Shown here one piece after another: positions 6,935 to 24,425 of a stretch of 34,161 bases of DNA. This DNA is from Gammaproteobacteria bacterium (GTDB taxonomy: Bacteria; Pseudomonadota; Gammaproteobacteria; Steroidobacterales; Steroidobacteraceae). The stretch covers positions 19,125 to 53,285 of the forward strand of contig PLET01000092.1 in the NCBI GenBank assembly GCA_003137095.1. Reading direction: 5' to 3'. Every line of letters begins with the position of its first letter. Within the stretch, counting starts at the first letter, position 1. The notes under the pieces are model-generated. The model was not told the origin of the DNA, did no database searches, and was given only the letters and a program-made list of their open reading frames with translations. Both the position numbers and the translations under genes were made by a program.

Positions 6935-6963
6935 GGCGGCGGCCGTTGATCACGGCCGCCGCC
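6935..6963. terminator. Strong hairpin between convergent gene ends
   Basis: A perfect 12-bp inverted repeat (GGCGGCGGCCGT / ACGGCCGCCGCC) with a five-base loop TGATC. The loop contains the start of the stop codon of the last permease gene (minus strand, 6950-6952). It sits just after the outer-membrane protein stop on the plus strand. No T tract follows on either strand, so it is not a canonical intrinsic terminator. It could still protect 3' ends or limit read-through between the convergent transcripts. Confidence 0.4.
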
Positions 6964-8466: not shown

Positions 8467-9248
8467 CTTTCTGTTTCCTGGATGAAATCGAACAGCACCC
8501 GCCTCAGTCGCATGAACTCCGGATCCTCCCGGGTGGACAGCTGGTCGCGCGGCCGCGGCAGGCGCACATCGAAGATCTCCGCGACCCGGCCCGGGTTCGG
8601 CCGCAATGCGACGACGCGATCACCGAGATAGATCGCCTCCTCGAGATCGTGGGTCACGAAGAACACGCTGGTATGGCCCGATTCGGCGATGCGCAGCACT
8701 TCGTCCTGCAGCACCTGGCGGGTCATTGCATCCAGCGCACCGAACGGCTCATCCATGAGCAGCACCGAGGGGCCCTGCGCGAGACAGCGGGCGATCTGCA
8801 GGCGCTGCTGCATGCCGCCCGAGAGCTGCGCCGGATACTTGTCGGCGTGATGCGCCAGTCCGACCTTGTCGAGCAGCGCGCGGATGCGCTGCGCCCGCTC
8901 CGGCTTTGGCGTGCCGCTCGCCTCGAGAGCCAGCGACACGTTGCCCGATGCCGTGCGCCAGGGCAGCAGCGCCTTGCTGTAATCCTGAAAGATCAGCGCA
9001 ACGTCGCTGGCCGGCTCGCCGACCACCTGGCCATCGTAGATGACCTCGCCGGCGTCCGGATGCACCAGGCCGGCGATCAGCCGCAACAGCGTGGTCTTGC
9101 CGCAGCCCGACGGGCCGACCACGCAGATGAATTCGCGGCGCCTGACCTTAAGGTTGATGTTCTCCAGTATCGGCCGCCCGCCGAGCGACAGCGACACGTT
9201 TCGGAATGCGATGAGTGCGTCATCGGCGTTGGATGTCGACCGGTCCAT
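8463..9248 (-). CDS. ABC transporter ATP-binding protein (SsuB/TauB/NrtD class)
   Basis: ATPase subunit of 261 residues. Walker A GPSGCGKT is at 45-52, the Q-loop Gln near 88, the signature LSGGMQQR at 142-149, Walker B LLMDEP at about 163-168 with the D-loop ALD following, and the switch His at 190. All nucleotide-binding elements are intact. The start ATG at 9248 comes one base after the stop codon of the binding-protein gene, consistent with tight coupling in one operon. It powers the permease pair encoded immediately downstream. Confidence 0.95.
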   Translation of the reverse strand: MDRSTSNADDALIAFRNVSLSLGGRPILENINLKVRRREFICVVGPSGCGKTTLLRLIAGLVHPDAGEVIYDGQVVGEPASDVALIFQDYSKALLPWRTASGNVSLALEASGTPKPERAQRIRALLDKVGLAHHADKYPAQLSGGMQQRLQIARCLAQGPSVLLMDEPFGALDAMTRQVLQDEVLRIAESGHTSVFFVTHDLEEAIYLGDRVVALRPNPGRVAEIFDVRLPRPRDQLSTREDPEFMRLRRVLFDFIQETES

Positions 9249-9249
9249 G

Positions 9250-10188
9250 TCAGTTGATGACCAGGTTGGCCGGGTCGGCGGGCACCTTGATCATGCCCTG
9301 CGCGAGCAGGGTGTCGGACCAGTATTTCACGTCGTTCAAGGGTACCTGAAGCCTGAGGGTCGGCAGGGTTACGGAGGCGATCACGTCGGGGGGCAATCTC
9401 GTGGCCTTGGCGAGGATCTGGCGGGCGCTTTCCGGATTCTTCTCGAGGTAGACGGCCGCATCGGCCAGGGCTTCGCGAAAAGCCTTGATGGTGGCCGCAT
9501 TGCTCCTCGCCCACGATCGGGTGGCCGAGTAATAGATCGCGAACAGGCCGTCCGGCATCTCGGTCACGAAGGGCGACACCAGGTGGCCGGTCCCGGCCTT
9601 GAGGATGCGGTCGAAGAATGGCTCGACCACCAGCACCGCGTCGACGTTGCCGGATTTCAGAATGTCGCTGCTCTGCGCCAGCGGCACCTCCACGAAATTG
9701 ACCTTCTTGTAGTCCACGCCATGCTCGGTCAGCCAGCGGCGAAACAGCACCTGCATGAAGGCGCCGATGCCCGGCACGCCGACGCGTTTGCCCTCGAAGT
9801 CCTTCGGCGTCCCGATGGTCACCCCGGTGCGCGCGACCACGCCGCCGCCATCCCGGGTGTGCACGTTGTTCACGGCTCCGCCGGCGATCACGACCACGTC
9901 AAGGCCGCCTCCGGACGCCTGCAGAAAGACGGGCGGCGTGGTGCCGCCGATCTGAATGCTGCCGCCGACCAGGGCGGAGGGGATGGTGGAATTCAACGCG
10001 ATCAGCACCAGCTTGACGTCGAGTCCGTGTCGGGCAAACAGGCCCTGATCCCTGGCGACGAACAATCCCGTGAAGCTGATGGTGTTGGTATAGCCGACGC
10101 TGAGCTGCGTGGCGGCTTGCGCCGCGACGCCGACACCGGCCAATGCCATCATGCCGGCCCAAGTCCAGGGCGAGAGAATACGTCTCAT
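9250..10188 (-). CDS. Periplasmic substrate-binding protein of the ABC importer (SsuA/TauA/NMT1-like), copy 1
   Basis: 312 residues with a signal peptide ending near GVAAQA, then the SsuA/NMT1-type fold starting LSVGYTNTISFTGLFVARDQG. Family landmarks are the RHGLDV strand and the hinge region KDFEGKRVGVPGIG. It is first in the four-gene importer operon and lies directly downstream of the 37-bp regulatory block at 10216-10252. The ATG at 10188 is preceded by a purine-rich ribosome site (AAAGGCAGGGTGGGG region). It is a close paralogue of the binding protein at 21111-22046, sharing VLIALNST, KDFEGKRVG and MQVLFRRWL among many strings. The ligand is unknown. Confidence 0.93.
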   Translation of the reverse strand: MRRILSPWTWAGMMALAGVGVAAQAATQLSVGYTNTISFTGLFVARDQGLFARHGLDVKLVLIALNSTIPSALVGGSIQIGGTTPPVFLQASGGGLDVVVIAGGAVNNVHTRDGGGVVARTGVTIGTPKDFEGKRVGVPGIGAFMQVLFRRWLTEHGVDYKKVNFVEVPLAQSSDILKSGNVDAVLVVEPFFDRILKAGTGHLVSPFVTEMPDGLFAIYYSATRSWARSNAATIKAFREALADAAVYLEKNPESARQILAKATRLPPDVIASVTLPTLRLQVPLNDVKYWSDTLLAQGMIKVPADPANLVIN

Positions 10189-10215: not shown

Positions 10216-10252
10216 ACCATGCCGATTATCAACTTTTTTGTCAACAATATTG
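10216..10252 (-). promoter_or_regulatory. Conserved promoter/operator block, copy 1 (importer operon)
   Basis: First of three 37-bp copies. On the plus strand it contains GATTATCAAC, then TTTTTTG and TCAACAATATTG. The core TTGTCAACAA at 10238-10247 is a TTGT-N2-ACAA palindrome, a pattern typical of GntR/FCD-family operators. Read on the minus strand, the core contains TTGACA, a perfect -35. With a 17-bp spacer it is followed by CATGGT (10216-10221), a weak -10. That would put transcription start near 10209, about 20 bases before the binding-protein ATG. A second near-match, TTATCAACT, lies 12 bp from TTGTCAACA, so two regulator dimers may bind one face of the helix. The block lies between divergent genes and may also affect the cupin gene. 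Confidence 0.8.
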
Positions 10253-10317
10253 ATAAATCGAATTGAGACAGACACACTAGGATTGAATCATCGAATTCAT
10301 CCGGGGAGAGTTCAGAT

Positions 10318-10863
10318 ATGGGCGGCAATGTTCGACGCGTGGTCACGGGACACGACGCAGACGGCAAGGCGATCATCATTTCCGACGGCATCACGCCGGT
10401 GGTGTTCGAAATCCCGCAGCGGCCCGGATATTCCGCCAATGAGGTGTGGGTGACCAACAGCATGCCGGCGCAGATCAATCAGCCCGGCGAGCCCACCCAG
10501 CGTACCCGCACCCTCGAGCCGCCGCCCAACGGCACCTTGTGCCGTATCGTCGTCCATCCGCCCGAATCCACGTGGATTCACAAAGTGGATCGGGCCGCCG
10601 CGAAGGCTGCGTTCGCGGCCTACGGCTCCTCGCACGCCTCCACCGCCGAAGAGGACAACCCGCCGCATCCCTTCATGCATCGGACCAAGACCGTCGATTA
10701 CGGCATCGTCCTGTCGGGCGAGGTGTATCTGGTGCTCGACAAGCAGGAGACACTGCTCAAAGCCGGCGACGTGGTGGTTCAGCGCGGCACCAACCATGCC
10801 TGGTCGAACCGTTCCAACGAACCGTGCCGCATGGCGTTCATCCTGGTCGACGGCGCCTGGTGA
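10318..10863 (+). CDS. Cupin-domain protein
   Basis: Single-domain cupin of 181 residues with an extended N-terminal part. Cupin motif 1 is a variant: His121 in HRTKTVDYGIVLSGEV, with Asp127 in place of the usual second His. Motif 2 is GDVVVQRGTNHAWSN with His160 and Asn164. This form is found in small cupins beside aromatic- or organic-acid catabolic genes; the fold can act as a dioxygenase, isomerase or small-molecule sensor, and no specific activity is assigned. The ATG at 10318 has GGGGAGAG upstream. A possible promoter is TTGAGA at 10263-10268 with AATCAT at 10286-10291 (17-bp spacing). It is divergent from the importer operon across regulatory block 1. Confidence 0.85.
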   Translation: MGGNVRRVVTGHDADGKAIIISDGITPVVFEIPQRPGYSANEVWVTNSMPAQINQPGEPTQRTRTLEPPPNGTLCRIVVHPPESTWIHKVDRAAAKAAFAAYGSSHASTAEEDNPPHPFMHRTKTVDYGIVLSGEVYLVLDKQETLLKAGDVVVQRGTNHAWSNRSNEPCRMAFILVDGAW

Positions 10864-10876
10864 GTTCCCGGCGGCA

Positions 10877-12016
10877 TTATCGCTGATTGCTGAAGATGAT
10901 GGTGCCGGCGGCACCAAACATGTCGCCGTTGCCGTGGCATACCGAAATCCTGGCGCCGGACACCTGCGCGGGCGCGATGCCGCGCATCTGCCGAACGCTC
11001 TCCTGCAGCGCATACATGCCGTACATCCCCGAATGCATGTAGCTCAGGCCGCCGCCATTGGTATTGACGGGCAACTTGCCCCCGGGCGCGGTGTTGCGGT
11101 TGGCGATGAACTCGCCGGTTGCCTCAGGCGGCATGAAGCCGAGGTCGCACAGCCCGTACAGCGGCAAATGTGCGAATGCGTCGTAGATCATCAGATGATC
11201 AACGTCGCGCGGGGTGATGCCCGCCTCGCGGAACGCCTGCGCGCCGGACACGCGCCATGCGCGCGAGCTGTTGAAGGATTCCATCTGGCTGACCACCGGC
11301 GTCTCAACGCTCTCGCCGGTGCCGAGAACGTACACCGGCTTGTGCGGAAAATCCGCGGCCCGGTCGGCGCTGGTCAATATCAGCGCACCGCCGCCGTCGG
11401 TCACCAGGCAGCACTGCAGGATCCTCAACGGATAGGCGATCATGCGCGAATTGAGCACCGCTTCGACCGTGAGCTTGTCCTTGTAGCTGGCGCGCGGATT
11501 CTTCGCAGCCCACTCGCGCTGCACCACCGAGACCATCGCCAGCTGCTCCTGCGTGATGCCGTAGGTCTTCATGAAACGCAGCAGCGGTATCGGGAATTGA
11601 GTCGGCCTGCCGTTGGTTCCGTAGGGTGCCTCGAATTGGCCCTCGAAATTATCGGCGCGCACCGACCGCGGCGGCTTGCCGATCAGCGACCGGCCGCTCT
11701 CGCCATGCGTGATGAGCACGGTTTTGCACAGTCCGGTTTCGATCGCCGCCGCCGCGTGCCGCACGTGAATCATGAAGGAACAGCCGCCGACGTGCGTGCC
11801 ATCCACCCAGGTGGGCGTTATGCCGAGATAGTGCGCGAGCTGGGTCGGCGTCTCGGCGGCGCACGCCAGGCCGTCGATGTCGCCGGGCTTGAGGCCGGCA
11901 TCCGCCAGAGTGTTCAGGGCCGCATCGGCATGCAGCTGGATCTGCGACATGTCGGGAATGACCCCGAGGCGCGTGGTTTCCGCCGCCCCGACCACGGCCA
12001 CCTGGTTGCGGCGCAT
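10877..12016 (-). CDS. Thiolase-like protein (SCP-X/Ltp2-type lipid-transfer thiolase family)
   Basis: 379 residues of thiolase fold. It belongs to the branch annotated 'acetyl-CoA acetyltransferase' or 'lipid-transfer protein', whose members usually pair with a DUF35 Zn-ribbon protein; the DUF35 gene is immediately upstream with a one-base gap. The nucleophile region reads THVGGCSFMIHV (Cys79, then Ser), and the C-terminal catalytic loop reads CHGNGDMFGAAG rather than the classical thiolase CxGGG loop. It may therefore be a CoA-ester C-C lyase or retro-aldolase rather than a normal beta-ketothiolase. The ATG at 12016 is preferred over a GTG at 12025. It is last in the operon starting with the enolase-superfamily gene. 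Confidence 0.88.
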   Translation of the reverse strand: MRRNQVAVVGAAETTRLGVIPDMSQIQLHADAALNTLADAGLKPGDIDGLACAAETPTQLAHYLGITPTWVDGTHVGGCSFMIHVRHAAAAIETGLCKTVLITHGESGRSLIGKPPRSVRADNFEGQFEAPYGTNGRPTQFPIPLLRFMKTYGITQEQLAMVSVVQREWAAKNPRASYKDKLTVEAVLNSRMIAYPLRILQCCLVTDGGGALILTSADRAADFPHKPVYVLGTGESVETPVVSQMESFNSSRAWRVSGAQAFREAGITPRDVDHLMIYDAFAHLPLYGLCDLGFMPPEATGEFIANRNTAPGGKLPVNTNGGGLSYMHSGMYGMYALQESVRQMRGIAPAQVSGARISVCHGNGDMFGAAGTIIFSNQR

Positions 12017-12017
12017 G

Positions 12018-12428
12018 TCAGGCACCGGCCGGGCGAAACACCGGCAACGTGATCGTGTCGTCGAGCTTCTGGAACGCGACTTCGAGCGCCATGTCGAGCA
12101 CCAGAGCCTCCGGAGTCTGGGGACAATCGATGATGTTGGTCATCAGTCGCGGACCCTCCGCCAGTTGCACCACCGCAATCGCATAGGGGGCGGTGAACCC
12201 GGGGGCCGCGCGATGATTGATGATGTAGCTGTAGAGCGTCGCCTTGCCGCTCGCCGCGAACACTCTGACGCCGCGCGAACCGCAAGCCGGGCAGAAGGGT
12301 CGCGGCGGAAAGTACGCCTTGCTGCACGCCTGGCAGCGTTGCAGCCGCAGCTCGCCCGCGGCTGCGCCGTCCCAATAGTGCTGAGTTTCGGGTGTGGGCA
12401 GCGGTTTGGCGCGCGCCGAGTCGTTCAT
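12018..12428 (-). CDS. DUF35/OB-fold Zn-ribbon protein, partner of the thiolase-like protein
   Basis: 136 residues. The N-terminal rubredoxin-like zinc ribbon has two Cys pairs, in RCQACSKAYF and FCPACGSRG. The C-terminal half is the OB fold with the usual YSYIINHRAAPGF and PYAIAVVQL strands. Proteins of this type form complexes with Ltp2-like thiolases and are needed for their activity or substrate presentation, as in steroid side-chain aldolases. Start ATG at 12428, 11 bases after the aldehyde dehydrogenase stop. Confidence 0.92.
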   Translation of the reverse strand: MNDSARAKPLPTPETQHYWDGAAAGELRLQRCQACSKAYFPPRPFCPACGSRGVRVFAASGKATLYSYIINHRAAPGFTAPYAIAVVQLAEGPRLMTNIIDCPQTPEALVLDMALEVAFQKLDDTITLPVFRPAGA

Positions 12429-12439
12429 GGCCGGCCTCG

Positions 12440-13876
12440 CTAAGCCCGAACCCGATGCACGAATTTTTCGTTCAGGAAGTCGCGAATGCCCTCGATGCCG
12501 CCCTCGCGTCCGTAGCCGCTTTGCTTGATGCCGCCGAACGGAGCCTCCGGCGTGGCCACCGCCACGGTGTTCACGCCGATGACGCCGGCCTGAAGCTCGG
12601 ACGTGACCGCGTCGATGGCGTTCCCTGAACGCGAAAACACGTAGGCCGCAAGGCCGAATTCGACCTCGTTGGCGCGGGCCACGGCTTCCTCGGGACTCTT
12701 CACCGGCACGATGGCCGCGATCGGCGTGAACGGCTCCTCGTGCAGGATGGTTGCATCGGGCGACAGATTCGTGAGTATGGTCGGCTCGAAGAAATAGCCG
12801 TGATTCAAACCGCCGGGACGGCCGCCGCCGCACGCCACCTTGGCACCCTTGGCGCGCGCATCCGCGACCAGACGCTGCGCCCTTTGCAGCTGCCGGCCGG
12901 TGGCAAGCGGACCCATTTGCACGCCGTCCTCCATGCCGTTGCCGACCTTCATGGCGCTCGCCAGCTTGGTCATCTGATCGGTGAAGGCACCCGACACGGA
13001 TTCGAGCACGAAGAAGCGGCTGGGTGCGCTGCAGACCTGTCCGGCGCAGCGCATGCGCGCGGTGACCGCCGCAGCCGCCGCCTTGCCGATATCGGCATCC
13101 TCGAGCACGATGAACGGTGCGTGGCCGCCGAGTTCCATGGTCAGCCGCTTGACGGTCTGTGCGCTCTGTTGCACCAGCAGCTGCCCCACGCGTGTGGAGC
13201 CGGTGAAGCTCACCTGACGCACGATCGGATTGGCCATCAGCGGCTCAACCACGGCCTGCGGCGAACCGAACAGCAGATTGACGGCGCCCGGCGGCAGCCC
13301 CGCATCATGGCAGCAGCGCACCAGCGCGGCCACGCACGCGGGCCCCTCCTCGGCGGGCCGCACGATGACCGTGCAGCCGGCGGCGAGAGCCATGGAGATC
13401 TTGCGGGTGGCGAGAATCACCGGGTAATTCCAGGCCGCCAGCGCCAGCACCACGCCGACCGGTTCGTGCGAAACCTCGAAGCGGCTGCCGGGCAGGCGTC
13501 CTTCGCGGAAATATCCGCCGAGGCGCCGGGCCTCCTCGGCCGCCCATTCGAAATACTCGGCGCAGGCCGTCACCTCGAGGCGCGATTCGAGTCGCGTCTT
13601 GCCGATTTCCAGGGTGACCAGCGTCACCAGATCCTCCAGGCGCTCGCGGATCAATGCGCCGATGCGGCGCAATATGAGCGATCGATCCCAGGGCGTGGTC
13701 TTGCGCCAGATCTCGAAGGCACGCTGTGCGGCCTGCACGGCGGCGCTCACCTCCTCCGGTCCGCTCGACGGGGAGGAGCCGAGCACCTCCTCCGTGGCCG
13801 GATTGATGACATCGATGCGCGGCGCCGCGGTCTTCGGGATCTCGATGCCGTTGATGAAGAGATTGGCTTGGTACAT
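12440..13876 (-). CDS. NAD(P)-dependent aldehyde dehydrogenase (semialdehyde dehydrogenase-like)
   Basis: 478 residues, standard length for the ALDH superfamily. Catalytic Cys292 (GQVC), general-base Glu258 (MELGG) and Asn160 (AAWNYP) are in place with family spacing. Two departures stand out: the cofactor-binding Lys of the KPAE motif is Arg183 (VRPAEEGP), and the Asn before AGQVC is Cys287 (RCAGQVC). The C-terminal EAPFGGIKQSGYGREGG is canonical and resembles succinate-semialdehyde and other 2-oxo or semialdehyde dehydrogenases. In this operon it would plausibly oxidise the aldehyde released by the HpcH/HpaI aldolase, or a later semialdehyde. The next gene in the operon follows after 11 bases. 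Confidence 0.93.
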   Translation of the reverse strand: MYQANLFINGIEIPKTAAPRIDVINPATEEVLGSSPSSGPEEVSAAVQAAQRAFEIWRKTTPWDRSLILRRIGALIRERLEDLVTLVTLEIGKTRLESRLEVTACAEYFEWAAEEARRLGGYFREGRLPGSRFEVSHEPVGVVLALAAWNYPVILATRKISMALAAGCTVIVRPAEEGPACVAALVRCCHDAGLPPGAVNLLFGSPQAVVEPLMANPIVRQVSFTGSTRVGQLLVQQSAQTVKRLTMELGGHAPFIVLEDADIGKAAAAAVTARMRCAGQVCSAPSRFFVLESVSGAFTDQMTKLASAMKVGNGMEDGVQMGPLATGRQLQRAQRLVADARAKGAKVACGGGRPGGLNHGYFFEPTILTNLSPDATILHEEPFTPIAAIVPVKSPEEAVARANEVEFGLAAYVFSRSGNAIDAVTSELQAGVIGVNTVAVATPEAPFGGIKQSGYGREGGIEGIRDFLNEKFVHRVRA

Positions 13877-13905
13877 GGCTCAGCTCCGTTCGATTCGGGA
13901 AGCGT

Positions 13906-14685
13906 TCATGAGGTGCTCTTGACTTCCTGCAGCAAAGATTCGCTGCGCCGGGCGACGATGGCGCCATCGGCGCCGACGGCGATGAACGAGAACCCGGCCT
14001 GCAGCCAGGCGCGCGCATCCGCCGGCACGAAATTCAGCAGACCGGGCGCCTTGCCGGTCTTGAGTATCATGCCCAGCGCCTTGGTGATCATTTCCTTCAC
14101 CTGCGGCAGCGTGGCCTTGCCGACCAGACCCATGCTCGCCGACAGGTCGCTCGGTCCGATGAACAGTCCGTCGATTCCGTCCACCGCGGCGATCTCCCCG
14201 ATGGCCTCGACCCCCTTGAGCGTCTCGATCTGCACCACGATGCAGATGTTCTCGTGGGTGTTCTCGAAATAATTCGTGATGCGGTTGAAGTTGCTGGCGC
14301 GGGTGTTGCCGGCGGCGCCGCGCATGCCGAGCGGCGGATAGCGCGTGGCGGCGACCGCGGCGCGCGCCTCCTCGGCCGACTGCACCAGCGGCACCATGAA
14401 GGATCGCACGCCGAGATCCAGCAGACGCTTGAAGACGACCGGATCGTTCCACGGTAGCCGCACCATGACCTCCGCCGTGCCGCCCTTGGCGGCGCGCAGA
14501 TGGTGCACCACGCTGCTCAAGTCGATGCAGTTGTGCTCGAGGTCGAGCAGCAGCCAGTCGTAGCCCGTTCCAGCCACGATTTCCGTGGCCATGGGGCTGT
14601 CGAGCGACAGCCACAGGCCGTACTGTTTCTTGCGCTCGCGCAGGTTGTGCTTGAATACATTGGGAACGGCTTGTACTTCCGGCAT
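13906..14685 (-). CDS. HpcH/HpaI family aldolase (2-oxo-3-deoxy acid aldolase type)
   Basis: 259-residue class II pyruvate aldolase that reversibly cleaves 4-hydroxy-2-oxo acids or 2-keto-3-deoxy-sugar acids to pyruvate and an aldehyde. Catalytic His51 (LDLEHNC), Arg76 (MVRLPW), and metal ligands Glu154 (VQIE) and Asp180 (FIGPSD) are present, with the family strings YPPLGMRG and PSDLSASMG. The start ATG at 14685 directly follows the TAA of the enolase-superfamily gene. This tight pairing suggests the enolase-type dehydratase makes the 2-keto-3-deoxy acid that this enzyme cleaves. Specificity (for example 2-keto-3-deoxy-L-rhamnonate or 5-keto-4-deoxyglucarate) cannot be assigned. Confidence 0.93.
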   Translation of the reverse strand: MPEVQAVPNVFKHNLRERKKQYGLWLSLDSPMATEIVAGTGYDWLLLDLEHNCIDLSSVVHHLRAAKGGTAEVMVRLPWNDPVVFKRLLDLGVRSFMVPLVQSAEEARAAVAATRYPPLGMRGAAGNTRASNFNRITNYFENTHENICIVVQIETLKGVEAIGEIAAVDGIDGLFIGPSDLSASMGLVGKATLPQVKEMITKALGMILKTGKAPGLLNFVPADARAWLQAGFSFIAVGADGAIVARRSESLLQEVKSTS

Positions 14686-15807
14686 TTAGCCTCTCCAGGG
14701 CGACAGCGCGTAACGCTCCACCGCCTGATCGTTGAAATTGAAACCCAGGCCGGGCTCCTGCGGGAGCAGAATCCTACCCTCTTTTATCTGCACCTGCTTG
14801 TCGAGCAGGCGGCGGAAATTGAGCACCTGATCGTCCGCGAAGTACTCCACGTACCGCGCGTTCGGGATGGCCGCCACCAGGTGCGCATGCAGATCGTGGA
14901 ACCAATGCGGGCACAGGGTGACTCCGAAGCTCGCGGCCGTGGCGGCGATGCGCTTGAATTCCGTGACGCCGCCGCAAACCGCGGCATCGGTCTGCAGGAT
15001 GGCGGCGCCGCCGGCCTGCAGGAGCTGCTTGAAGCGCCAGCGCCCGACCTCGATCTCCCCGGTGGCCACCAGTACCGAGGTGCTGCCCGCGAGGCGGGCG
15101 TGGTTTTCGATGTCGTCCGGGCTGAAGGGCTCTTCGATGAAATACGGGTCGTACTTCTCGAACATCCGCACAAAACGCAGCGCAGTCGGCAGATCGGACC
15201 ACGCATTGTTGGCATCGAGCATGAGCAGGGGATCCGGCCCGATGCGCTCGCGCACCGCCGCGATGCGGGCCTCCTCGCCGCGCAGATCGAGCTTGCCGAC
15301 CTTCATCTTGACGGCCTGGAAGCCGCCGTTGACATACGCCTGCATTTCGTCCGCCAGCTTCGCCGGGGTCTTGCCGTCCAAATAATAGCCGCCGCTGGCA
15401 TAGGCGGGGACGCTGTCGCTGACGGCGCCGAGAAACCGATACAGCGGCAGTTTGGCGGCCCGGGAATTTCGGTCCCAGAGCGCGATGTCGAGGGCGCTGA
15501 TGGCCCGCATCACCGTGCCGGCGCGCCCCTGCAGCAGCGTCTCCTGATACATCTCGCCCCACAATCCTTCGACGCGATAGGGGTCCTGGCCCAGCAGCAC
15601 GGGGGCCAGCAGGCTCGTGACGATCTCCGGGAAAATGCTGCCGCCCGAGCTGCCGACGTAGCAGAAGCCGATGCCCTTGAAGCCGTCATCGCCAGAAACC
15701 TCGACGATCCCGTAATGCCGCTCCTTGACGAGACGACTGGCGAAGGAGGTCGCGGAATCCAGGGGTATGCTGATGGCGCGCGCACGAACCGCGGAAATCT
15801 TGGACAT
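14686..15807 (-). CDS. Mandelate racemase/muconate-lactonizing (enolase superfamily) protein, probable acid-sugar dehydratase
   Basis: 373 residues with the N-terminal capping domain and C-terminal TIM barrel. Base residues Lys167 and Lys169 form the KMK motif; metal ligands are Asp198 (LMLDANNAW), Glu225 (FIEEP) and Glu251 (ATGEIE). A His-rich strand, CPHWFHDLHAH (His301, 304, 307), supplies the acid partner, as in dehydratases of sugar acids. The ATG at 15807 has AGAAAGG about ten bases upstream; a longer GTG reading from 15870 was discarded because it lacks homologous sequence and would begin at the predicted transcription start. It is first in the five-gene operon behind regulatory block 2 and next to the GntR gene. 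Confidence 0.92.
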   Translation of the reverse strand: MSKISAVRARAISIPLDSATSFASRLVKERHYGIVEVSGDDGFKGIGFCYVGSSGGSIFPEIVTSLLAPVLLGQDPYRVEGLWGEMYQETLLQGRAGTVMRAISALDIALWDRNSRAAKLPLYRFLGAVSDSVPAYASGGYYLDGKTPAKLADEMQAYVNGGFQAVKMKVGKLDLRGEEARIAAVRERIGPDPLLMLDANNAWSDLPTALRFVRMFEKYDPYFIEEPFSPDDIENHARLAGSTSVLVATGEIEVGRWRFKQLLQAGGAAILQTDAAVCGGVTEFKRIAATAASFGVTLCPHWFHDLHAHLVAAIPNARYVEYFADDQVLNFRRLLDKQVQIKEGRILLPQEPGLGFNFNDQAVERYALSPWRG

Positions 15808-15875
15808 ATTGGTGCAGCCTTTCTTTTGATGTAACGTGGTGCGCTGCGGCAGTTGTCTGCCGAGGCCCACTTGCC

Positions 15876-15912
15876 ACCATGTAGATTATCAACTCTTTTG
15901 TCAACAATATTG
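15876..15912 (-). promoter_or_regulatory. Conserved promoter/operator block, copy 2 (enolase operon and gntR)
   Basis: Second copy of the 37-bp block. The palindromic core TTGTCAACAA is at 15898-15907. On the minus strand TTGACA is followed after 17 bp by CATGGT (15876-15881), predicting a start near 15869 and a leader of about 60 bases before the enolase-superfamily ATG. This is the only copy next to the regulator gene itself, so it offers both repression of the enolase operon and autoregulation. Confidence 0.82.
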
Positions 15913-15925
15913 GCAGAATGATCAT
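15898..15925 (+). promoter_or_regulatory. Possible gntR promoter overlapping the operator core
   Basis: TTGTCA (15898-15903) as -35 and GATCAT (15920-15925, four of six matches) as -10, separated by 16 bp. The -35 is the operator palindrome itself, so regulator binding would block its own promoter. A start near 15932 leaves about 34 bases of leader before the chosen ATG at 15966. Pattern match only. Confidence 0.35.
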
Positions 15926-15965
15926 CGGAGCTTATGATGGTCGGGGCGGAACCTTAGGATCTGCC

Positions 15966-16646
15966 ATGTCGAAAAACGAGAATACGATCGGCGCCGCGGA
16001 CATCGCGGCCACATTGGAGGAGGAAATCGCGCTCGGACATCTGGCGCCACGGGAGCGGCTGGTCGAGGAGGAACTCGCCGAACGCTTCCACGTCAAGCGC
16101 CACGTCATCCGCCAGGCGCTGCTCGATCTGGACGCCATGGGCATCGTGGTGCGCCAGCCCAATCGCGGCGCCGCCGTCAAGGACTTCTCCGCCTCCGAGG
16201 TCGAGAATCTGTATCTGGTGAGGACCCTGGTCGAGACCTGCGCAGGCAAGCTGATTCCGATGCCGGCTCCGCCGCGCCTGATCGAGGCCTTGCTGCAGAT
16301 CCACGAGCGGCATTGCGCGGCCGCGAATCGCGGCGACCTGCGCCAGGTGTTCAGGGAAAACCTGATTTTTCACAAGACGCTGTTCGCCGCCTGCGGCAAC
16401 ACAGCGCTCACCGAAGTCATCGAGCAGCTGCACTTCAAGACGCATGCCATCCGCTCCTACAGCGTCGGCGATCCGCAGATTCTGGCGAGCGTGCGCGCGC
16501 AGCACGAGCGCATGATCGCGCTGCTGCAAACCACGCAACGCGACGAATTCGTGGCCCTGCTGGACCAGCACATCCAGCCGGCCAAGAACGCGTATCTGCA
16601 ACAATCCCGCCATCAAGCATCGCGCACTACGACGAACCCGCGTTGA
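15966..16646 (+). CDS. GntR family transcriptional regulator, FCD (FadR) subfamily
   Basis: 226 residues. The N-terminal winged helix-turn-helix spans about residues 10-73 (RLVEEELAERFHVKRHVIRQAL) and the FCD ligand-binding domain about 77-210. FCD metal-site candidates are Asn122 and His126 (ENLIFHKTLF), His170 (AQHERM) and His192 (DQHIQPAK), so it probably senses a carboxylate through a bound metal. The ATG at 15966 is preferred over one at 15918: it has AGGA upstream and begins the family-typical helix, and the earlier one would sit at the predicted -10. It is divergent from the enolase operon, and its 3' end overlaps the convergent SDR gene by 20 bases. It is the obvious candidate to bind all three 37-bp blocks. 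Confidence 0.92.
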   Translation: MSKNENTIGAADIAATLEEEIALGHLAPRERLVEEELAERFHVKRHVIRQALLDLDAMGIVVRQPNRGAAVKDFSASEVENLYLVRTLVETCAGKLIPMPAPPRLIEALLQIHERHCAAANRGDLRQVFRENLIFHKTLFAACGNTALTEVIEQLHFKTHAIRSYSVGDPQILASVRAQHERMIALLQTTQRDEFVALLDQHIQPAKNAYLQQSRHQASRTTTNPR

Positions 16647-17379
16647 TCACGAAGCATTGTTTGGTGAGCATGCGGCCGGCATCCGAGCACAGGAACACAG
16701 CAAGATTCGCGACATCCTCCGGATTGACCGGATCCGGAATGCACTGCGCCGCGATGAGCGCCGTTTCGGCCGCCGCGTCGAACCACAAGCTGCGTTGACG
16801 CGGCGTCGACACGTAGCCCGGTGCGATGGCATTCACGCGGATGCGGTCCGGTCCGAGCCTGCGGGCGAGTGAATGGCTGAATCCGACGATAGCCGCCGTG
16901 GCGGCGCTGTAGAGCGGCAGATCTGCGACCCCGTTCATCCACGCGGTGGCGCTGGTGTTCACGATGCAGCCACCGCCCAGCGAGCGCATGTGCGGTATGA
17001 CCTTTTGTGCCGTGAAGATCACATGCCTCAGATTCAGGTCCATCATCCACTGAAAATCCACGAAGTCGACCGCGGTGATGTCCTTGCGCTGATCGACCGC
17101 GGCGTTGTTGATCAGGCCGGCGACGGGCCCCATGTCCCGCCGCACCTTGTCGACCGCGCCGGCAAGCGCGTCCAGGTCGGTCAGTTCGCAGGCCAGGAAC
17201 ACGGTGCCCGGCAATTCAGCCGCGAGCGCCCGCCCGGCCTCGTCCTGCCGGTCGAGAAACGCCACCCGTGCGCCGTTGTGCACGAAGGCGCGCACATGCG
17301 CCGCGCCGATCCCCGACGCGCCGCCGGTCACCAGGATGACCTTGCCGGCGAGATCCGGATAGACGGGAGGGGTCGCCAC
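16627..17379 (-). CDS. SDR-family protein with substituted catalytic lysine
   Basis: 250 residues with the SDR fold. The cofactor motif TGGASGIG is at 18-25, NNA at 91-93, Ser143 (NTSAT) and Tyr157 are present, and the later loop IRVNAIAPGYVSTP is typical. The catalytic Lys of YxxxK is Thr161 (YSAAT); the codon is ACG where AAG would encode Lys. It is therefore either an impaired or changed enzyme, or carries a one-base sequencing or assembly error. The start is GTG at 17379, four bases after the DUF1080 stop. It is the last of six genes in the operon led by the second binding protein, and would be expected to oxidise a sugar acid or hydroxy acid. Confidence 0.88.
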   Translation of the reverse strand: MATPPVYPDLAGKVILVTGGASGIGAAHVRAFVHNGARVAFLDRQDEAGRALAAELPGTVFLACELTDLDALAGAVDKVRRDMGPVAGLINNAAVDQRKDITAVDFVDFQWMMDLNLRHVIFTAQKVIPHMRSLGGGCIVNTSATAWMNGVADLPLYSAATAAIVGFSHSLARRLGPDRIRVNAIAPGYVSTPRQRSLWFDAAAETALIAAQCIPDPVNPEDVANLAVFLCSDAGRMLTKQCFVINAGSS

Positions 17380-17383
17380 CGCG

Positions 17384-17992
17384 CTAATGGATTATCGGCC
17401 GGACCTGCACCTTTCGCCATTTGACGATGCCGCCGCCATACTGCAGCGCGATCGGGCCGCTGGCATAGGTGCTGTCGTTGGTCTCGACGGTCTGCTTGCC
17501 GTCCATGAGCACCAGCAGATGCGCGCCGTCGGCCGTGATGTCGAAGGTGCTCCACTTGTAGCCCGCCTTGGGCACCGGATCGACCTTGGCGAACAGGGCG
17601 ATGGAGCCGGTGGCGTAATACTGGACCTTGTACGTGTCCCAGATGTTCATTTCGTAGCAATTCTTGGCACTGATCTTGTTCGGATCGGAGCAGCGGAAGA
17701 ACACGCCGCTGTTGGTGTCCGGGGTCACCCACACCTCGGCGCGGATCTCCACATTGGAATAGGAATTCTTGGATACCAGAAAGGTGCTGTCCTTGCCCGC
17801 CCGCGAATCGGCCATCACGGTGCCGTCCTCTACGCGCCAATTCGGCTCGGTGTTCTGGATCCAGTTGTCCATGGTCGACGGCTTCGAACCATCGAGCAGC
17901 GTGATCCAGCCCGCATCGTGCGGCGTGCTCGCGCAGCCGGCAACGGCGGCCAGCGCCGCCAGCAAGGCGCTGATGACGACAGAACGGATCAT
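17384..17992 (-). CDS. DUF1080 (3-keto-disaccharide hydrolase-like) lipoprotein
   Basis: 202 residues. The N-terminus MIRSVVISALLAALAAVAGC ends in a lipobox, so the mature protein should begin at that Cys (residue 20) and be membrane-anchored. The rest is one DUF1080 domain, a concanavalin-like beta-sandwich: ITLLDGSKPSTMDNW near the start, then WRVEDGTVMAD, VWVTPDTNSGVFFRC and a C-terminal GPIALQYGGG. Such domains bind or hydrolyse modified sugars outside the cytoplasm. It is the only clearly extracytoplasmic enzyme candidate within this operon and hints that the substrate may be carried on a glycoside. Confidence 0.88.
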   Translation of the reverse strand: MIRSVVISALLAALAAVAGCASTPHDAGWITLLDGSKPSTMDNWIQNTEPNWRVEDGTVMADSRAGKDSTFLVSKNSYSNVEIRAEVWVTPDTNSGVFFRCSDPNKISAKNCYEMNIWDTYKVQYYATGSIALFAKVDPVPKAGYKWSTFDITADGAHLLVLMDGKQTVETNDSTYASGPIALQYGGGIVKWRKVQVRPIIH

Positions 17993-18014
17993 TTTATTCT
18001 CCCCCTTTGCGAGT

Positions 18015-18680
18015 TCACGGCGGCGACAGCGTCCGCCAATCCGCGGCCAATTGCAATTTTGGCTCGGTGACCGCCTGCAGTCCGGCCAAATCCATACCCT
18101 GCACCATTTCCCGCACGATCAGGCCTTCCGCGGTGACGTCGATCACCGCCAGGTTGGTGTAGATGCGCTTCACCACGCCGGGCGCGGTCAGTGGCAGGGA
18201 GCAGCGCCGCTTGATGCGGGGCTCGCCCTTCTTGCTGGTATGTTCCATGAGCACGCGCACCTGCTTGGCGCCGGCCGCCAGATCCATCGCGCCGCCCACC
18301 CCGGGCGGAAAGGACGGATCTTCGGTGGTCCAATTGGCCAGATCACCCTGCTCCGAGACCTCGAAGGCGCCCATGAGACTGACGTCGAGATGTCCGCCGC
18401 GGATCATGACGAACGAATCGGCGTGATGCACGAACGCGCCGCCCGCGACCAGCGTGCACAGGCCCTTGCCGGCATCGATCAGGTCCTTGTCTTCCTCGCC
18501 CGGTTTGGGCGCGGGACCCATGCCGAGCACGCCGTTCTCGCTGTGGAAAATCACCTCGCGGCCGGCGGGTATGTGGCGCGCCGCCAGGGTGGGGATTCCG
18601 ATGCCGAGGTTCACGTAGTTTCCGTCCAGCAGATCCTGTGCGGCACGCCAGGCCATTTGTTGACGCGTCAGCACGGTCAT
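18015..18680 (-). CDS. 3-oxoacid CoA-transferase, subunit B
   Basis: 221 residues, class I CoA-transferase beta subunit. Catalytic Glu48 lies in SENGVLGMGP, followed by the family strings DAGKGLCTLVAGGAFV and GGHLDVSLMGAFEV. It resembles PcaJ/ScoB proteins, which with subunit A move CoA from succinyl-CoA to a 3-oxo acid such as acetoacetate or 3-oxoadipate. The ATG at 18680 overlaps the subunit A stop as ATGA. A role in activating a 3-oxo acid before thiolytic or retro-aldol cleavage is inferred from the nearby thiolase-like gene. Confidence 0.94.
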   Translation of the reverse strand: MTVLTRQQMAWRAAQDLLDGNYVNLGIGIPTLAARHIPAGREVIFHSENGVLGMGPAPKPGEEDKDLIDAGKGLCTLVAGGAFVHHADSFVMIRGGHLDVSLMGAFEVSEQGDLANWTTEDPSFPPGVGGAMDLAAGAKQVRVLMEHTSKKGEPRIKRRCSLPLTAPGVVKRIYTNLAVIDVTAEGLIVREMVQGMDLAGLQAVTEPKLQLAADWRTLSPP

Positions 18681-19348
18681 GGGTGGCTCCCGAGTACGAA
18701 CACGCGATCGACGAATATTCCCGGGGTCACGACGCATTCCGGGTCCAACTCGCCCAGTTCCACGAATTGGCTGGCTTCAACGATGGTCAGGTCGGCCGCC
18801 ATCGCCATGATCGGATTGAAATTGCGCGCCGACTTCCGGTAGGTGAGATTCCCCCAGCGATCGGCCTTGTGGGCCTTGACGATGGCGACATCTCCCTTCA
18901 GCGGCTTTTCGAACACGTATGGGCGCCCGTCGATCTCGCGGGTCTCCTTGCCCTGCGCCAGCCGCGTACCAGCCGACACCGGGCAGAAGAACCCGCCGAG
19001 TCCGGCGGCTGCGCAGCGCAGCCGTTCACTGATGGTGCCCTGCGGAACGAGCTCCAGCTCGATGCGACCGGCATTGTAGGCTTCGACGAAACCGCTGTAG
19101 TCGCCGGAGCGCGGAAAGGAGCAGATGACCTTGCGCACGTGGCCGGAGGTGATCAATCTGGCCAGCCCGTAATCGCCATTGCCGGTGTTGTTGGAGACGA
19201 TGGTCAGATCGCGCGCACCCTGCGCCTGCAGCGCCTCGATCGTGGAGTTGGCGATGCCGACATCGCCGAATCCCGCGACCAACACCGTCGATCCGTCGCG
19301 GATGCCCGCAACCGCGTCGTTCACCGTTTTCACCCGCTTGTCGATCAA
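18677..19348 (-). CDS. 3-oxoacid CoA-transferase, subunit A
   Basis: 223 residues, class I CoA-transferase alpha subunit, PcaI/ScoA-like. The glycine-rich CoA-site region is VLVAGFGDVGIANSTIEAL near the N-terminus, and further family strings are VPQGTISERLR and KADRWGNLTYRKSARNFNP. The start is a TTG at 19348 with a strong AAGGAG seven bases upstream; this is better supported than any ATG, since the frame upstream is just the antisense of the dehydratase gene. It lies 11 bases after the dehydratase stop and overlaps subunit B by four bases. Confidence 0.93.
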   Translation of the reverse strand: MIDKRVKTVNDAVAGIRDGSTVLVAGFGDVGIANSTIEALQAQGARDLTIVSNNTGNGDYGLARLITSGHVRKVICSFPRSGDYSGFVEAYNAGRIELELVPQGTISERLRCAAAGLGGFFCPVSAGTRLAQGKETREIDGRPYVFEKPLKGDVAIVKAHKADRWGNLTYRKSARNFNPIMAMAADLTIVEASQFVELGELDPECVVTPGIFVDRVFVLGSHP

Positions 19349-19359
19349 GAATGCGCTCC

Positions 19360-21108
19360 TTAAAAAATGGCCGGCTCGCCCGGTCCCGGACCGAAGGATG
19401 TCTGCAGGAAATCGAAGTCGCAGCCGTCCTGCGGGGGCCCGATGTGGCGCGTGAACATCCAGCCGTAGCCGCGTGCGAAACGCGGCGGCGGCGGCTGCCA
19501 GCGCGCGCGGCGCGCGGCCAGCTCGGCGTCCGACACCTCCAGGTGAAGCGTGCGCGCCTCGATGTCGATGGAAATCCGGTCGCCGTTTTGCACCAGCGCC
19601 AGCGGCCCCCCCAGGAACGCCTCCGGCGAGACGTGCAGCACGCAGGCACCGTAGCTGGTGCCGCTCATGCGCGCATCGGATATCCGCAGGAGGTCGCGCA
19701 CGCCCATTTTCAGCAGCTTCACGGGTATCGGCAGCAGCCCCCATTCGGGCATGCCGGGACCGCCCTGCGGCCCGGCATTGCGCAGAATCATGACGTGATC
19801 CGGCGTGATGTCCAGGTTCTCGTCGTTGACCGCCTTCATCATGGACGGATAATCGTCGAATACGATGGCCGGGCCGGAATGCTTGAGGAACTTCGGATCC
19901 AGGGCGCTCGGCTTGATCACGCAGCCGTCCGGCGAGAGATTTCCCCTGAGCACCGCCAGGGCGCCTTCCTTGTAGACGGGCTTGTCGAGCGGGCGGATCA
20001 CATCGTCATTGAACACCTGCGCACCGGCGATGTTTTCTCCGAGTGTTCTGCCGGTCACCGTCATCGCGTCCAGATGCAGGTATTGCTTCATGCGCATCAT
20101 CAGCGCGGGCAGTCCCCCGGCATAGTAGAAATCCTCCATGAGGTACGGCGAGCCGCTCGGCTTGACGTTGGCGATGACCGGCACCTTGCGGCTGGCCCGC
20201 TCGAAGTCGTCCAGCCCGATGGCGACCCCGGCACGCCGTCCCTGGGCGATCAGATGAATGATGGCATTGGTGGAGCAGCCGATGGCCATCGCGACGTTGA
20301 TGGCGTTCTCGAAGGCCTGGCGCGTCTGGATCCGTGCCGGCGTCAGATCCTCCCAGACCATCTCCACGATGCGCCTGCCGGCATCCGCGCACATGCGGAT
20401 GTGGTTGGAATCCGCGGCCGGAATGGAGGACGCCCCCGTCAGGGACATGCCGAGCGCCTCGGCCAGGCCGGTCATGGTGCTCGCCGTGCCCATGGTCATG
20501 CAGGTGCCGTAGCTGCGCGCCAGCCCTCTTTCGATGCCCGCCCAGTCCTCGGCGCTGACCTTGCCAACCTTGCGCTCCATCCACAGCCGGTAGGAATCCG
20601 AACCCGAGCCGAGCACCTGGCCGTGCCAATTGCCGCGCAGCATGGGGCCGGCCGGAATGTAGATGGCCGGATAGCCGGCGCTGGTGGCGCCGAGCAGCAG
20701 GGCCGGGGTGGTCTTGTCGCAACCGCCCATGAGCACCGCGCCGTCCACCGGGTGGGAGCGCAGCAGCTCTTCGGTATCCATCGCCAGCATGTTCCGATAG
20801 AGCATGGTGGTCGGCTTGACGAATATCTCCGCCAGCGACAGGGCGGGCAGTTCGATGGGAAATCCGCCGGCCTGCAGGATGCCGCGCTTCACATCGTCCA
20901 CGCGCGTCTTGAAATGCGCATGGCAGGGTTGGATGTCCGACCAGGTGTTCACAATGGCGATGATGGGCCGTCCCAGATAATCCTGCGGGGAATACCCCAT
21001 CTGCATGATGCGCTGGCGGTGGCTGGAGGTGCGCAGATCGTCCGGTTTGAACCAGCGCGCACTGCGTAGCGTATCCGGTGTCTTTCTGATGGTCATGTGG
21101 GTTCCCAT
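19360..21108 (-). CDS. IlvD/Edd family dehydratase, probably a sugar-acid (aldonate) dehydratase
   Basis: 582 residues (578 if the ATG at 21096 is used, which has GGGAA upstream). Iron-sulfur cluster ligands of the family are visible as Cys62 (IQPCHAH), Cys130 (MGGCDKTTP, with Lys132) and Cys203 (YGTCMTMGTAST). The N-terminal RSARWFKPDDLRTSSHR and MQMGY are closer to arabonate/xylonate-type dehydratases than to the IlvD of branched-chain biosynthesis. It would convert a sugar acid to a 2-keto-3-deoxy acid, the same kind of reaction as expected for the unrelated enolase-superfamily protein in the neighbouring operon. Second gene of its operon, just downstream of the binding protein. Confidence 0.92.
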   Translation of the reverse strand: MGTHMTIRKTPDTLRSARWFKPDDLRTSSHRQRIMQMGYSPQDYLGRPIIAIVNTWSDIQPCHAHFKTRVDDVKRGILQAGGFPIELPALSLAEIFVKPTTMLYRNMLAMDTEELLRSHPVDGAVLMGGCDKTTPALLLGATSAGYPAIYIPAGPMLRGNWHGQVLGSGSDSYRLWMERKVGKVSAEDWAGIERGLARSYGTCMTMGTASTMTGLAEALGMSLTGASSIPAADSNHIRMCADAGRRIVEMVWEDLTPARIQTRQAFENAINVAMAIGCSTNAIIHLIAQGRRAGVAIGLDDFERASRKVPVIANVKPSGSPYLMEDFYYAGGLPALMMRMKQYLHLDAMTVTGRTLGENIAGAQVFNDDVIRPLDKPVYKEGALAVLRGNLSPDGCVIKPSALDPKFLKHSGPAIVFDDYPSMMKAVNDENLDITPDHVMILRNAGPQGGPGMPEWGLLPIPVKLLKMGVRDLLRISDARMSGTSYGACVLHVSPEAFLGGPLALVQNGDRISIDIEARTLHLEVSDAELAARRARWQPPPPRFARGYGWMFTRHIGPPQDGCDFDFLQTSFGPGPGEPAIF

Positions 21109-21110
21109 TC

Positions 21111-22046
21111 TCAGTCGATGATGAGCGTCGCCGGGTCGGGGCGGGTCTTGGTGATGCCCTGCTGGACCAAGGTGTCGATCCAGTACTGAAGATCAGCGCG
21201 CGGCACCTCGACCTTGAGCTTCGGAATGATGATGTTCGCCATGTCGGATGCCGGCAGCTTCATGGAGCGGGCGAGTATCTCGCGCGACTTGACCGGCTCC
21301 CTCGCGAGGAAGGCGATGCCCTCCGCCAGGGCCGCGCGAAATGATTTGATCGCCGCCGCGTTGCGCCCCGCCCATTCCCGGGTCGATGCAAAATACAGCG
21401 AAAACAATCCCTCGGGCATTTCCACCAGGTAGTGCGAGACCAGATAGCCGGTCCTGGCTGCAATGATGCGGCTGTAGTAAGGATCGCTGGTGAGCAGCGC
21501 ATCGACGTTGCCGGACCGCAGGATGTCGTTGCCCTGGGCGAAGGGCACCTCCACGAAGGTGACCTTGCGATCGTCGGCGCCCTTGTTGCGCAGCCAGCGC
21601 CGGAACAGTACCTGCATATAGGAGCCGATGCCGGGCGCGCCGACGCGTTTGCCCTCGAAGTCCTTGGCATTGCGGATCACGACGCCGGTGCGCGCCACCA
21701 CGCCCTGCCCCGACTGGCTGGTGTCGTTGGAGGAGCAGCCGGAAATGACGACAATGTCGAGGCCGCCCTCGACGGCCTGCAGGAACACCGGCGGACTCGG
21801 CGAGGCGATCTGCAGACTGCCGCCGACCAGAGCGGCCGGCATGGTGGAGTTGAGCGCGATCAGCACCGGCTGCACGTCGAGGCCGTGGCGGGCGAACATG
21901 CCCTGATCGCGGGCCACCCACATGGCCGTGAAACCGGAAACGTTGGAATAGCCCAGCCGGATCACGGTGGGTGCCTGGGCGTGGGCCACGCTGGCGCCCA
22001 GCATCAGCCCAGTTGCCCACCATCCGGCCATCAACAGGTGTCGCAT
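21111..22046 (-). CDS. Periplasmic substrate-binding protein (SsuA/TauA/NMT1-like), copy 2 without its own transporter
   Basis: 311 residues with a signal peptide ending near SVAHAQA, then IRLGYSNVSGFTAMWVARDQG. By eye it is a close paralogue of the binding protein at 9250-10188 along the whole length: RHGLDV, VLIALNST, PPVFLQA, VVARTGV, KDFEGKRVG, MQVLFRRWL. No permease or ATPase gene adjoins it; instead a dehydratase and CoA-transferase genes follow. It probably delivers a related ligand to the importer encoded at 6.95-9.25 kb. The ATG at 22046 follows AAGG a few bases upstream, and regulatory block 3 lies 37-73 bases upstream. Confidence 0.93.
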   Translation of the reverse strand: MRHLLMAGWWATGLMLGASVAHAQAPTVIRLGYSNVSGFTAMWVARDQGMFARHGLDVQPVLIALNSTMPAALVGGSLQIASPSPPVFLQAVEGGLDIVVISGCSSNDTSQSGQGVVARTGVVIRNAKDFEGKRVGAPGIGSYMQVLFRRWLRNKGADDRKVTFVEVPFAQGNDILRSGNVDALLTSDPYYSRIIAARTGYLVSHYLVEMPEGLFSLYFASTREWAGRNAAAIKSFRAALAEGIAFLAREPVKSREILARSMKLPASDMANIIIPKLKVEVPRADLQYWIDTLVQQGITKTRPDPATLIID

Positions 22047-22082
22047 CGTTCCTCAAGGCCCCTTGGGGCATTCGTGGGCCGC

Positions 22083-22119
22083 ACAATGCAGATTATCAAC
22101 TATTTTGTCAACAATATTG
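22083..22119 (-). promoter_or_regulatory. Conserved promoter/operator block, copy 3 (binding protein 2 / dehydratase operon)
   Basis: Third copy of the 37-bp block. The core TTGTCAACAA is at 22105-22114. On the minus strand TTGACA is followed after 17 bp by CATTGT (22083-22088), predicting a start near 22076 and a leader of about 30 bases. Compared with the other copies it differs only at the third base of the -10 equivalent, the two bases after it, and one base inside the T-rich spacer. No gene diverges from this copy, so its conservation must serve the minus-strand operon. Confidence 0.82.
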
Positions 22120-24406: not shown

Positions 24407-24425
24407 TTGAATACCCCCGCCCAAA

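Follow-up and report, generated by a model that had tools for sequence, protein, structure and literature searches.

Three repeated blocks upstream of minus-strand operons

The window analysed here, a 34,161-nucleotide stretch of contig PLET01000092.1 from a gammaproteobacterium of the family Steroidobacteraceae, carries a single gene of the GntR family (gntR) and three near-identical 37-bp blocks, each lying before a different minus-strand operon. The blocks and the regulator gene are placed as follows.

10216-10252, minus strand: block 1, upstream of the ATP-binding cassette (ABC) uptake operon and also between this operon and a cupin-like gene at 10318-10863 (plus strand)
15876-15912, minus strand: block 2, in the divergon between the dehydratase-aldolase operon (minus strand) and gntR (plus strand)
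22083-22119, minus strand: block 3, upstream of the operon 16627-22046 (minus strand)
15966-16646, plus strand: GntR/FCD regulator of 226 amino acids, matching PF00392 (3e-15) and PF07729 (1.4e-20), both over cut-off

A recount confirmed the description given in an earlier note on this DNA: 33 of the 37 columns are invariant across the three blocks, which have a common orientation and each precede a minus-strand operon. Every pair is identical at 34/37 positions. The repeat family returned by the repeat finder measures 39 nt at most, similarity stopping within two bases of the 37-bp block, and the remaining intergenic DNA shows no further such repeat. A comparison of block 1 with the whole window gave scores of 37, 34 and 34, the next best being 24, and the best match in 100 first-order Markov sequences reached 23/37. 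All three blocks contain TTGT-N2-ACAA, the operator form that the note had expected of GntR/FCD proteins. Each block holds one copy of the motif TTGTNNACAA, and these three are all that the window contains; 0.17 occurrences are expected, and three were reached in 0/100 shuffles. Chance similarity of the blocks is ruled out by these shuffle and Markov comparisons.

Internal architecture of the blocks

Read on the minus strand, the block has the form CAATA-TTGTTGACAA-AANA-GTTGATAATC-N2-CATNGT, where N marks the positions that differ among the three copies. Site A is the palindrome TTGTTGACAA, which holds the -35 hexamer TTGACA. The gap between TTGACA and CATNGT is 17 bp, the spacing of a -35 and a weak -10. 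The predicted sites and the promoter-like elements around them are listed below.

10238-10247: predicted operator site A of block 1, TTGTCAACAA, a palindrome
10226-10235: predicted operator site B of block 1, TTATCAACTT, its centre 12 bp from that of site A
10239-10244, minus strand: -35 TTGACA of block 1, within site A, as read from the sequence
10216-10221, minus strand: candidate -10 CATGGT of block 1, 17 bp after the -35
15898-15907: predicted operator site A of block 2
15886-15895: predicted operator site B of block 2, TTATCAACTC
22105-22114: predicted operator site A of block 3
22093-22102: predicted operator site B of block 3, TTATCAACTA
15910-15938, plus strand: promoter-like TTGGCA-N17-TATGAT before gntR, 10/12 matches, its -35 starting two bases past site A
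15898-15925, plus strand: second, weaker promoter match on the gntR side, 9/12, with a -35 that falls within site A of block 2
10263-10291, plus strand: promoter-like site of the cupin-like gene, outside block 1

The length of the 37-bp block can be resolved into the palindrome, a weaker second site centred at a distance of 12 bp and, possibly, a weak -10. The promoter-like -35 before gntR follows at two bases from the end of site A in block 2 (15898-15907), an arrangement that offers a plausible mechanism for autoregulation. The longest gntR reading frame starts at 15918 and crosses the promoter-like site at 15910-15938, for which reason the start was taken as the ATG at 15966. A GATAAT within the block was considered as an alternative -10 and set aside: no good -35 was seen 16-18 bp upstream of it, and it is lost at the third site of the closest relative (see below), where TTGACA-N17-CATCGT persists.

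Occurrence of the block in the genome and across genomes

The source genome assembly (G000; 4,736,042 bases in 129 contigs, completeness 91.77) was searched with the 24-base inner part of the block, TTGTTGACAAAANAGTTGATAATC, allowing up to three mismatches. This search returned the three blocks only, and the reversed query, used as a control in the same genome, gave zero matches. A dispersed repeat, against which the earlier note had proposed a genome motif scan, is ruled out by this count of three genome copies, the extended block being found at these three places only. A GntR hidden Markov model (HMM) finds nine genes in the genome, one of them on this contig, at window positions 15996-16178, so that gntR is indeed the only GntR gene of the window. 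The bare core WTTGTYRACAAW is found at four places in G000. In G018, a bog metagenome assembly of the same genus that is taken here to be the genome of the locus L006, it occurs at three, all on the contig of the cluster and spaced as the L006 sites.

Among 60 genomes including the source genome, the block (with R allowed at one position) is present in G000 and G018 only, and the same two carry a gntR ortholog at E<=1e-30. Among 369 genomes sampled across the class, this ortholog threshold is passed by the source genome alone.

Conservation of the sites in relatives

The L006 cluster is syntenic with that of the window, its proteins being 62-84% identical in the main tblastn matches and its gntR ortholog 73% identical. 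The palindrome is kept at all three syntenic places. Compared with the 37-bp consensus, the L006 sites show one mismatch before the gene of substrate-binding protein 1 (sbp1), four before the dehydratase gene and 12 before the gene of substrate-binding protein 2 (sbp2). Block 1 is identical to its counterpart at 36/37 positions versus 46/86 aligned positions outside it, block 2 at 32/37 versus 55/106, and block 3 at 25/37 versus 35/85.

In the more distant Roseomonas/Pseudoroseomonas loci L008-L011, whose GntR proteins are 43-46% identical to the window regulator, TTGTNNACAA occurs once per 15-21 kb locus, as a single TTGTCGACAA directly upstream of gntR-ilvD with a TctC gene on the other side (shown for L009). 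Block 2 has a like divergon placement, between 14686-15807 (minus strand) and gntR at 15966 (plus strand), as the L009 site has between TctC and gntR. Two exact cores are present in the Palleronia locus L007. The first separates ilvD from tctC, in an operon whose direction leads to gntR, and the second precedes a 2-hydroxyacid dehydrogenase gene. Elsewhere in Palleronia (L085 4606-4615), TTGTTGACAA lies at a divergent junction of TRAP solute-binding and DHDPS-family genes, possibly another target or the regulon of another FCD protein.

The regulator homologs were collected as 35 loci, reduced to 34 by leaving out L050 (contig edge, no upstream DNA). Cores matching at least 7/8 were counted in the 300 bp upstream of each homolog, with the gene and its downstream DNA from the same loci as control segments. 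For homologs of at least 39% identity (39-51%), the core was present upstream in 9/18, compared with 3/114 control segments, and in 8/15 versus 3/93 when near-copies were removed; these counts overstate the independent events because related loci remain (e.g. L075-L079, L058-L061). In the dereplicated sets, L008 and L007 also stand for the excluded loci L049 and L066, whose genes are the same, and L068 and L073 for their excluded near-copies L069 and L074.

A second site 12 bp from the core

The distance between the core and a second site was analysed in three tests, in which single bases were shuffled within each flank. In the first, on 20 exact-core sites from 14 sequences, offset 12 ranked top with 5.5/8, the other offsets averaging 2.6 (0/2000 flank shuffles). 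With the set reduced to 11 sites, offset 12 was still top (0/3000 flank shuffles). The 12-bp spacing had been noticed in some sites before these two tests, and the third mostly adds sites not so used. It covered upstream regions other than those of the window and the sister genome; within the scanned part, a core of at least 9/10 is found in 21/30 of them, for which offset 12 scores 7.67/10 compared with a mean of 4.15 for the other offsets (0/2000 shuffles). Offsets 15 (5.9) and 24 (5.57) came next, 24 being the value expected of a third site. Of the 21, 19 have a partner of at least 7/10 on one side or the other at offset 12, eight at 24 and seven at 15; the mean of this count over the 35 offsets other than 12, which include 15 and 24, is 0.94.

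When 27 sites were combined, 24 had a 12-bp partner, 23 of them on one side and one on both, leaving three with none. The partner lies to the left of the core in 12 sites and to the right in 13. Its positions 3-8 and 10 match the consensus in 18-27 of the 27 sites, and positions 1, 2 and 9 in 10-16, agreement that is inflated by taking the better side of each site; from this positional agreement, the partner looks like a full, weaker site. A score of 8/10 is reached at 24 bp too in L051, L053, L058, L059 and L061.

As a control, 30 of 147 FCD matches were taken from five of these genomes, which hold 18 to 41 such matches each, using regions of 440 bp versus 350 bp for the homologs. A core of at least 9/10 is present in 5/30 of the control regions, and for these five offset 12 scores 4.2, not above the other offsets. 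With this small control, the comparison suggests that the 12-bp partner accompanies homologs of the window regulator, the core being common to other FCD genes.

The regulator and its recognition helix

The regulator combines an N-terminal GntR winged helix with a C-terminal FCD domain, which places it in the FadR subfamily of the GntR family. Its recognition helix reads KRHVIRQAL, whereas that of the control FCD set is commonly of the SRTPVREAL type. RH stands at the helix start in all 21 homologs that have a core; among the nine homologs lacking one in the scanned part, three are without RH (L064, L065, L068) and six have it. In the control FCD proteins the recognition helix was found in 24/30, of which 22 start with SR and none with RH. 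This comparison concerns a small sample chosen by similarity, the regulator group being defined by identity to the window protein and by helix-turn-helix alignment.

Genes under the blocks

The operons behind blocks 1, 2 and 3 contain four, five and six genes, respectively, a total of 15 that agrees with the estimate of about 15 in the earlier note; gntR itself and the divergent cupin-like gene would raise the target set to 17. The genes, in the order of their blocks, are:

9250-10188, minus strand: ABC substrate-binding protein 1, NMT1/THI5-like
8463-9248, minus strand: ABC ATPase
7711-8466, minus strand: ABC permease (PF00528)
6950-7714, minus strand: probable second ABC permease, from the list of open reading frames (ORFs)
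10318-10863, plus strand: small protein, cupin-like by reading of its translation, a possible divergent target of block 1
14686-15807, minus strand, probable start 15807: enolase-superfamily dehydratase (PF13378/PF02746)
13906-14685, minus strand: HpcH/HpaI aldolase
12440-13876, minus strand: aldehyde dehydrogenase
12018-12833 (ORF), minus strand: ChsH2-type Zn-ribbon/OB-fold protein beside the thiolase, its true start probably further downstream
10877-12025, minus strand: thiolase-like protein
21111-22046, minus strand: ABC substrate-binding protein 2, paralog of protein 1
19360-21108, minus strand: IlvD/Edd dehydratase of the L-arabinonate dehydratase type (NF009559, 1031 bits versus a cut-off of 882)
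18677-19744 (ORF), minus strand: 3-oxoacid CoA-transferase subunit A, domain from near residue 133
18015-18737, minus strand: 3-oxoacid CoA-transferase subunit B
17384-17992, minus strand: 3-keto-disaccharide hydrolase family protein
16627-17379, minus strand: SDR dehydrogenase, best NCBIfam match D-xylose 1-dehydrogenase, below cut-off

In an NCBIfam scan of ten proteins, the IlvD-type dehydratase and both CoA-transferase subunits pass the cut-off, and the other seven stay below it among the matches listed. These include the SDR dehydrogenase, the aldolase and the aldehyde dehydrogenase; the enolase-superfamily dehydratase has talarate/galactarate dehydratase as its best match, also below cut-off. 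The best solved relatives of the IlvD/Edd dehydratase in the PDB include 9evv (L-arabinonate dehydratase, E 3.7e-176) and 5j83. The cluster probably encodes an oxidative sugar-acid pathway of the L-arabinonate type, the other sugar-acid enzymes matching below cut-off. The L006 counterpart of the probable second permease (1005-1595) resembles the first permease at 32%. The cupin-like protein is 84% identical in L006 and has no match in NCBIfam, the one library tried.

Some features of the surroundings were also recorded. The two paralogous substrate-binding proteins lie under two copies of the block, but there is a single ABC transporter core, and the operon of substrate-binding protein 2 has no transporter genes. 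A 748-residue protein with a G8 domain and a CEMIP-type beta-helix is encoded just upstream of block 3 (22178-24424, minus strand), and genes for an enoyl-CoA hydratase and a class III CoA-transferase lie farther upstream, also on the minus strand. Positions 5902-6876 (plus strand), flanked by the ABC operon on one side and a class II aldolase gene on the other, encode a protein of 324 amino acids with a signal-like N-terminus by eye and no Pfam match.

A probable regulon under the local regulator

The three blocks are probably the promoter/operators of one regulon, comprising about 15-17 sugar-acid genes under the local GntR/FadR-subfamily repressor. The GntR/FCD protein (15966-16646) would bind site A, including the -35 TTGACA, and also the weaker site B, centred 12 bp off in the promoter spacer, and this binding would repress the three minus-strand operons. 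Through block 2 the regulator would repress itself too, site A lying there two bases from the -35 of its likely promoter. A pathway acid, probably an aldonate or an aldarate, or its dehydration product, would release the regulator. The repeats, their exclusivity in the genome, their conservation at orthologous positions and the recurrence of the palindrome and of the 12-bp partner before homologous regulators are shown by computation; we infer that it is this protein which binds, that it represses the operons instead of activating them, that it occupies sites A and B together, and what its inducer would be. The local GntR regulon of the earlier note is thus supported by exclusivity and footprinting, with the refinement that the 10-bp core alone is not specific to the regulator.

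Several observations weigh against this interpretation. The fourth WTTGTYRACAAW site of G000 is located at another FCD gene, and cores of at least 7/8 to TTGTNNACAA occur in 8/30 control FCD regions. The control for the 12-bp partner is small, with five usable regions, and offset 15 is second best in all three offset tests. Co-occurrence of block and regulator in 2/60 genomes would also be expected if the whole cluster had travelled together. At the third L006 site, box B is lost from its side and a partner is found on the other, and the position directly before gntR in Palleronia (L007) holds no exact core. Homologs below 39% identity show weaker enrichment (5/16 versus 7/107 control segments; 4/15 versus 5/101 without near-copies), and in 9/30 dereplicated homolog upstream regions the scanned part lacks a core of at least 9/10; that of L072, one of the nine, lies just beyond it. 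Finally, the minus-strand -10 is weak (CATGGT or CATTGT, 3/6 matches), and for this reason a promoter scan of the blocks called no minus-strand promoter.

The fourth core, a TTGTCGACAA, stands at the start of the other FCD regulator gene (L083 4281-4290, C104:7280-7289). It has no partner at 12 bp, is neighboured on the same strand by FAD-oxidoreductase and phosphodiesterase-family genes, and is possibly that regulator's own operator. Because this core sits at another FCD gene, the core is not cluster-specific, whereas the extended block is; the fourth site and the control FCD regions together rule out the 10-bp core as a regulator-specific signal. As far as these sequences tell, the core is an ordinary FCD operator form and the extended block is private to the cluster.

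Among the alternatives, it is unlikely that the regulator activates the operons instead of repressing them. The sign of regulation is not readable from sequence, and some FCD proteins activate. Sites A and B, however, overlap the -35 and the spacer, the position expected of a repressor. DgoR, which is compared below, likewise represses from two inverted repeats overlapping its promoter (PMC12288454).

It is more unlikely still that the blocks are constitutive or sigma-specific core promoters whose likeness stems from RNA polymerase contacts (TTGACA, the -10 and an AT-rich spacer). A perfect TTGACA does stand 17 bp from CATNGT, and this spacing survives at the third L006 site, where much else is lost. 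Three ordinary promoters, however, would not be expected to share 33/37 positions, the 24-base inner part is unique to the cluster in the genome, and the palindrome recurs before homologous regulators; moreover, the occurrence of the second site on either side, 12 left and 13 right, suits a protein site better than a -10.

A slightly smaller probability is given to the blocks being real FCD operators that serve an FCD/GntR protein of the genome other than the local regulator, or several such proteins at once. The genome has nine GntR-family genes, and one other carries the same 10-bp core at its start, but this one (the C104 site) lacks the 12-bp partner, and the extended block is confined to the cluster and to the two of 60 genomes that have this regulator. 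The core with its 12-bp partner goes with homologs of the window regulator, and no such partner was seen among the other FCD genes sampled, of which only 5/30 had a testable core.

Least probable of all is that the promoter was merely copied along with the substrate-binding-protein gene without selection for one regulator: blocks 1 and 3 both precede the paralogous genes sbp1 and sbp2, which are 71% identical over 258 nt, but the gene behind block 2 is unrelated, the blocks resemble each other more closely (34/37) than this coding DNA does, with no similarity reported beside them, and the orthologous blocks 1 and 2 were retained in L006 while their flanks diverged. Copying may account for the origin of the blocks, not for their retention.

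Beyond the single regulon proposed for the local repressor, it is conceivable, at somewhat less than even confidence, that the RH-helix FCD group reads a composite operator. This would consist of a strong TTGTYRACAA-like palindrome and a weaker full palindrome at a centre distance of exactly 12 bp, in most cases on a single side, with hints of a third site at 24 bp in some. Two dimers would lie next to each other, separated by about 1.1 helical turns. It would then be the spacing, and not the shared 10-bp core, that gives each regulator its private regulon.

Comparison with known systems

The type of regulation is ordinary, and extra boxes near GntR-family sites are already published. In PMC4494728, the FadR-subfamily operator is described as an A/T-rich palindrome with TKGT/ACMA boxes, the GT and AC being 2 or 3 nt apart, often (not universally) located in a divergon between the regulator and a structural operon. 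For 13 FadR-subfamily groups the same paper reports additional, weaker boxes, placed 7-12 nt from the centre and either on one side or on both. Those boxes are described as half-sites, whereas the partner here looks like a whole second site with a fixed spacing of 12 bp, one-sided in 23/27 sites; the two may be the same phenomenon.

Other systems resemble the one proposed here in part. DgoR, the E. coli D-galactonate repressor, is also a GntR/FadR-family protein of a sugar-acid pathway, and its dimer represses from two closely spaced inverted repeats overlapping the promoter, similar to the proposed A/B layout (PMC12288454). In the DgoR sites 3 nt separate GT from AC (PMC4494728), compared with 2 nt here, and the present case differs in that the operons, three in number, belong to a single cluster. 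PrpR (PA0797) of Pseudomonas aeruginosa is an FCD repressor with a predicted operator, ATTGTCGACAAT, before its own gene and with the same TTGT-N2-ACAA core, but it controls the 2-methylcitrate cycle and a single 12-nt palindrome is described for it (PMC9765439). No 2-methylcitrate cycle genes were recognised in the 30 Pfam-scanned ORFs of the window, which include 14/15 of the genes under the blocks. For AraR2 of Halomonas, GntR control of a regulon for L-arabinonate catabolism and uptake is predicted, as here, although with a TRAP transporter and another gene set, a likeness drawn from the published description (PMC5507952). The E. coli GntR-type repressor NanR binds as several dimers cooperatively on closely spaced repeats, like the proposal made here, but the repeats are GGTATA and cooperativity depends on a 32-residue N-terminal extension (PMC8012715). 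Within the open-licence literature searched, neither the regulator itself nor a partner at a fixed 12 bp in a group of this kind was found described.

For a sugar-acid cluster of a gammaproteobacterial genus, the analysis provides a regulator, an operator and 15-17 probable target genes. It also offers a clean case for the loosely described extra boxes of the GntR family, in the form of a second site at a fixed 12 bp within one regulator group. This two-site operator with its 12-bp step is the part worth keeping, and the fixed spacing bears on how the many FCD paralogs of a genome keep similar core operators apart.

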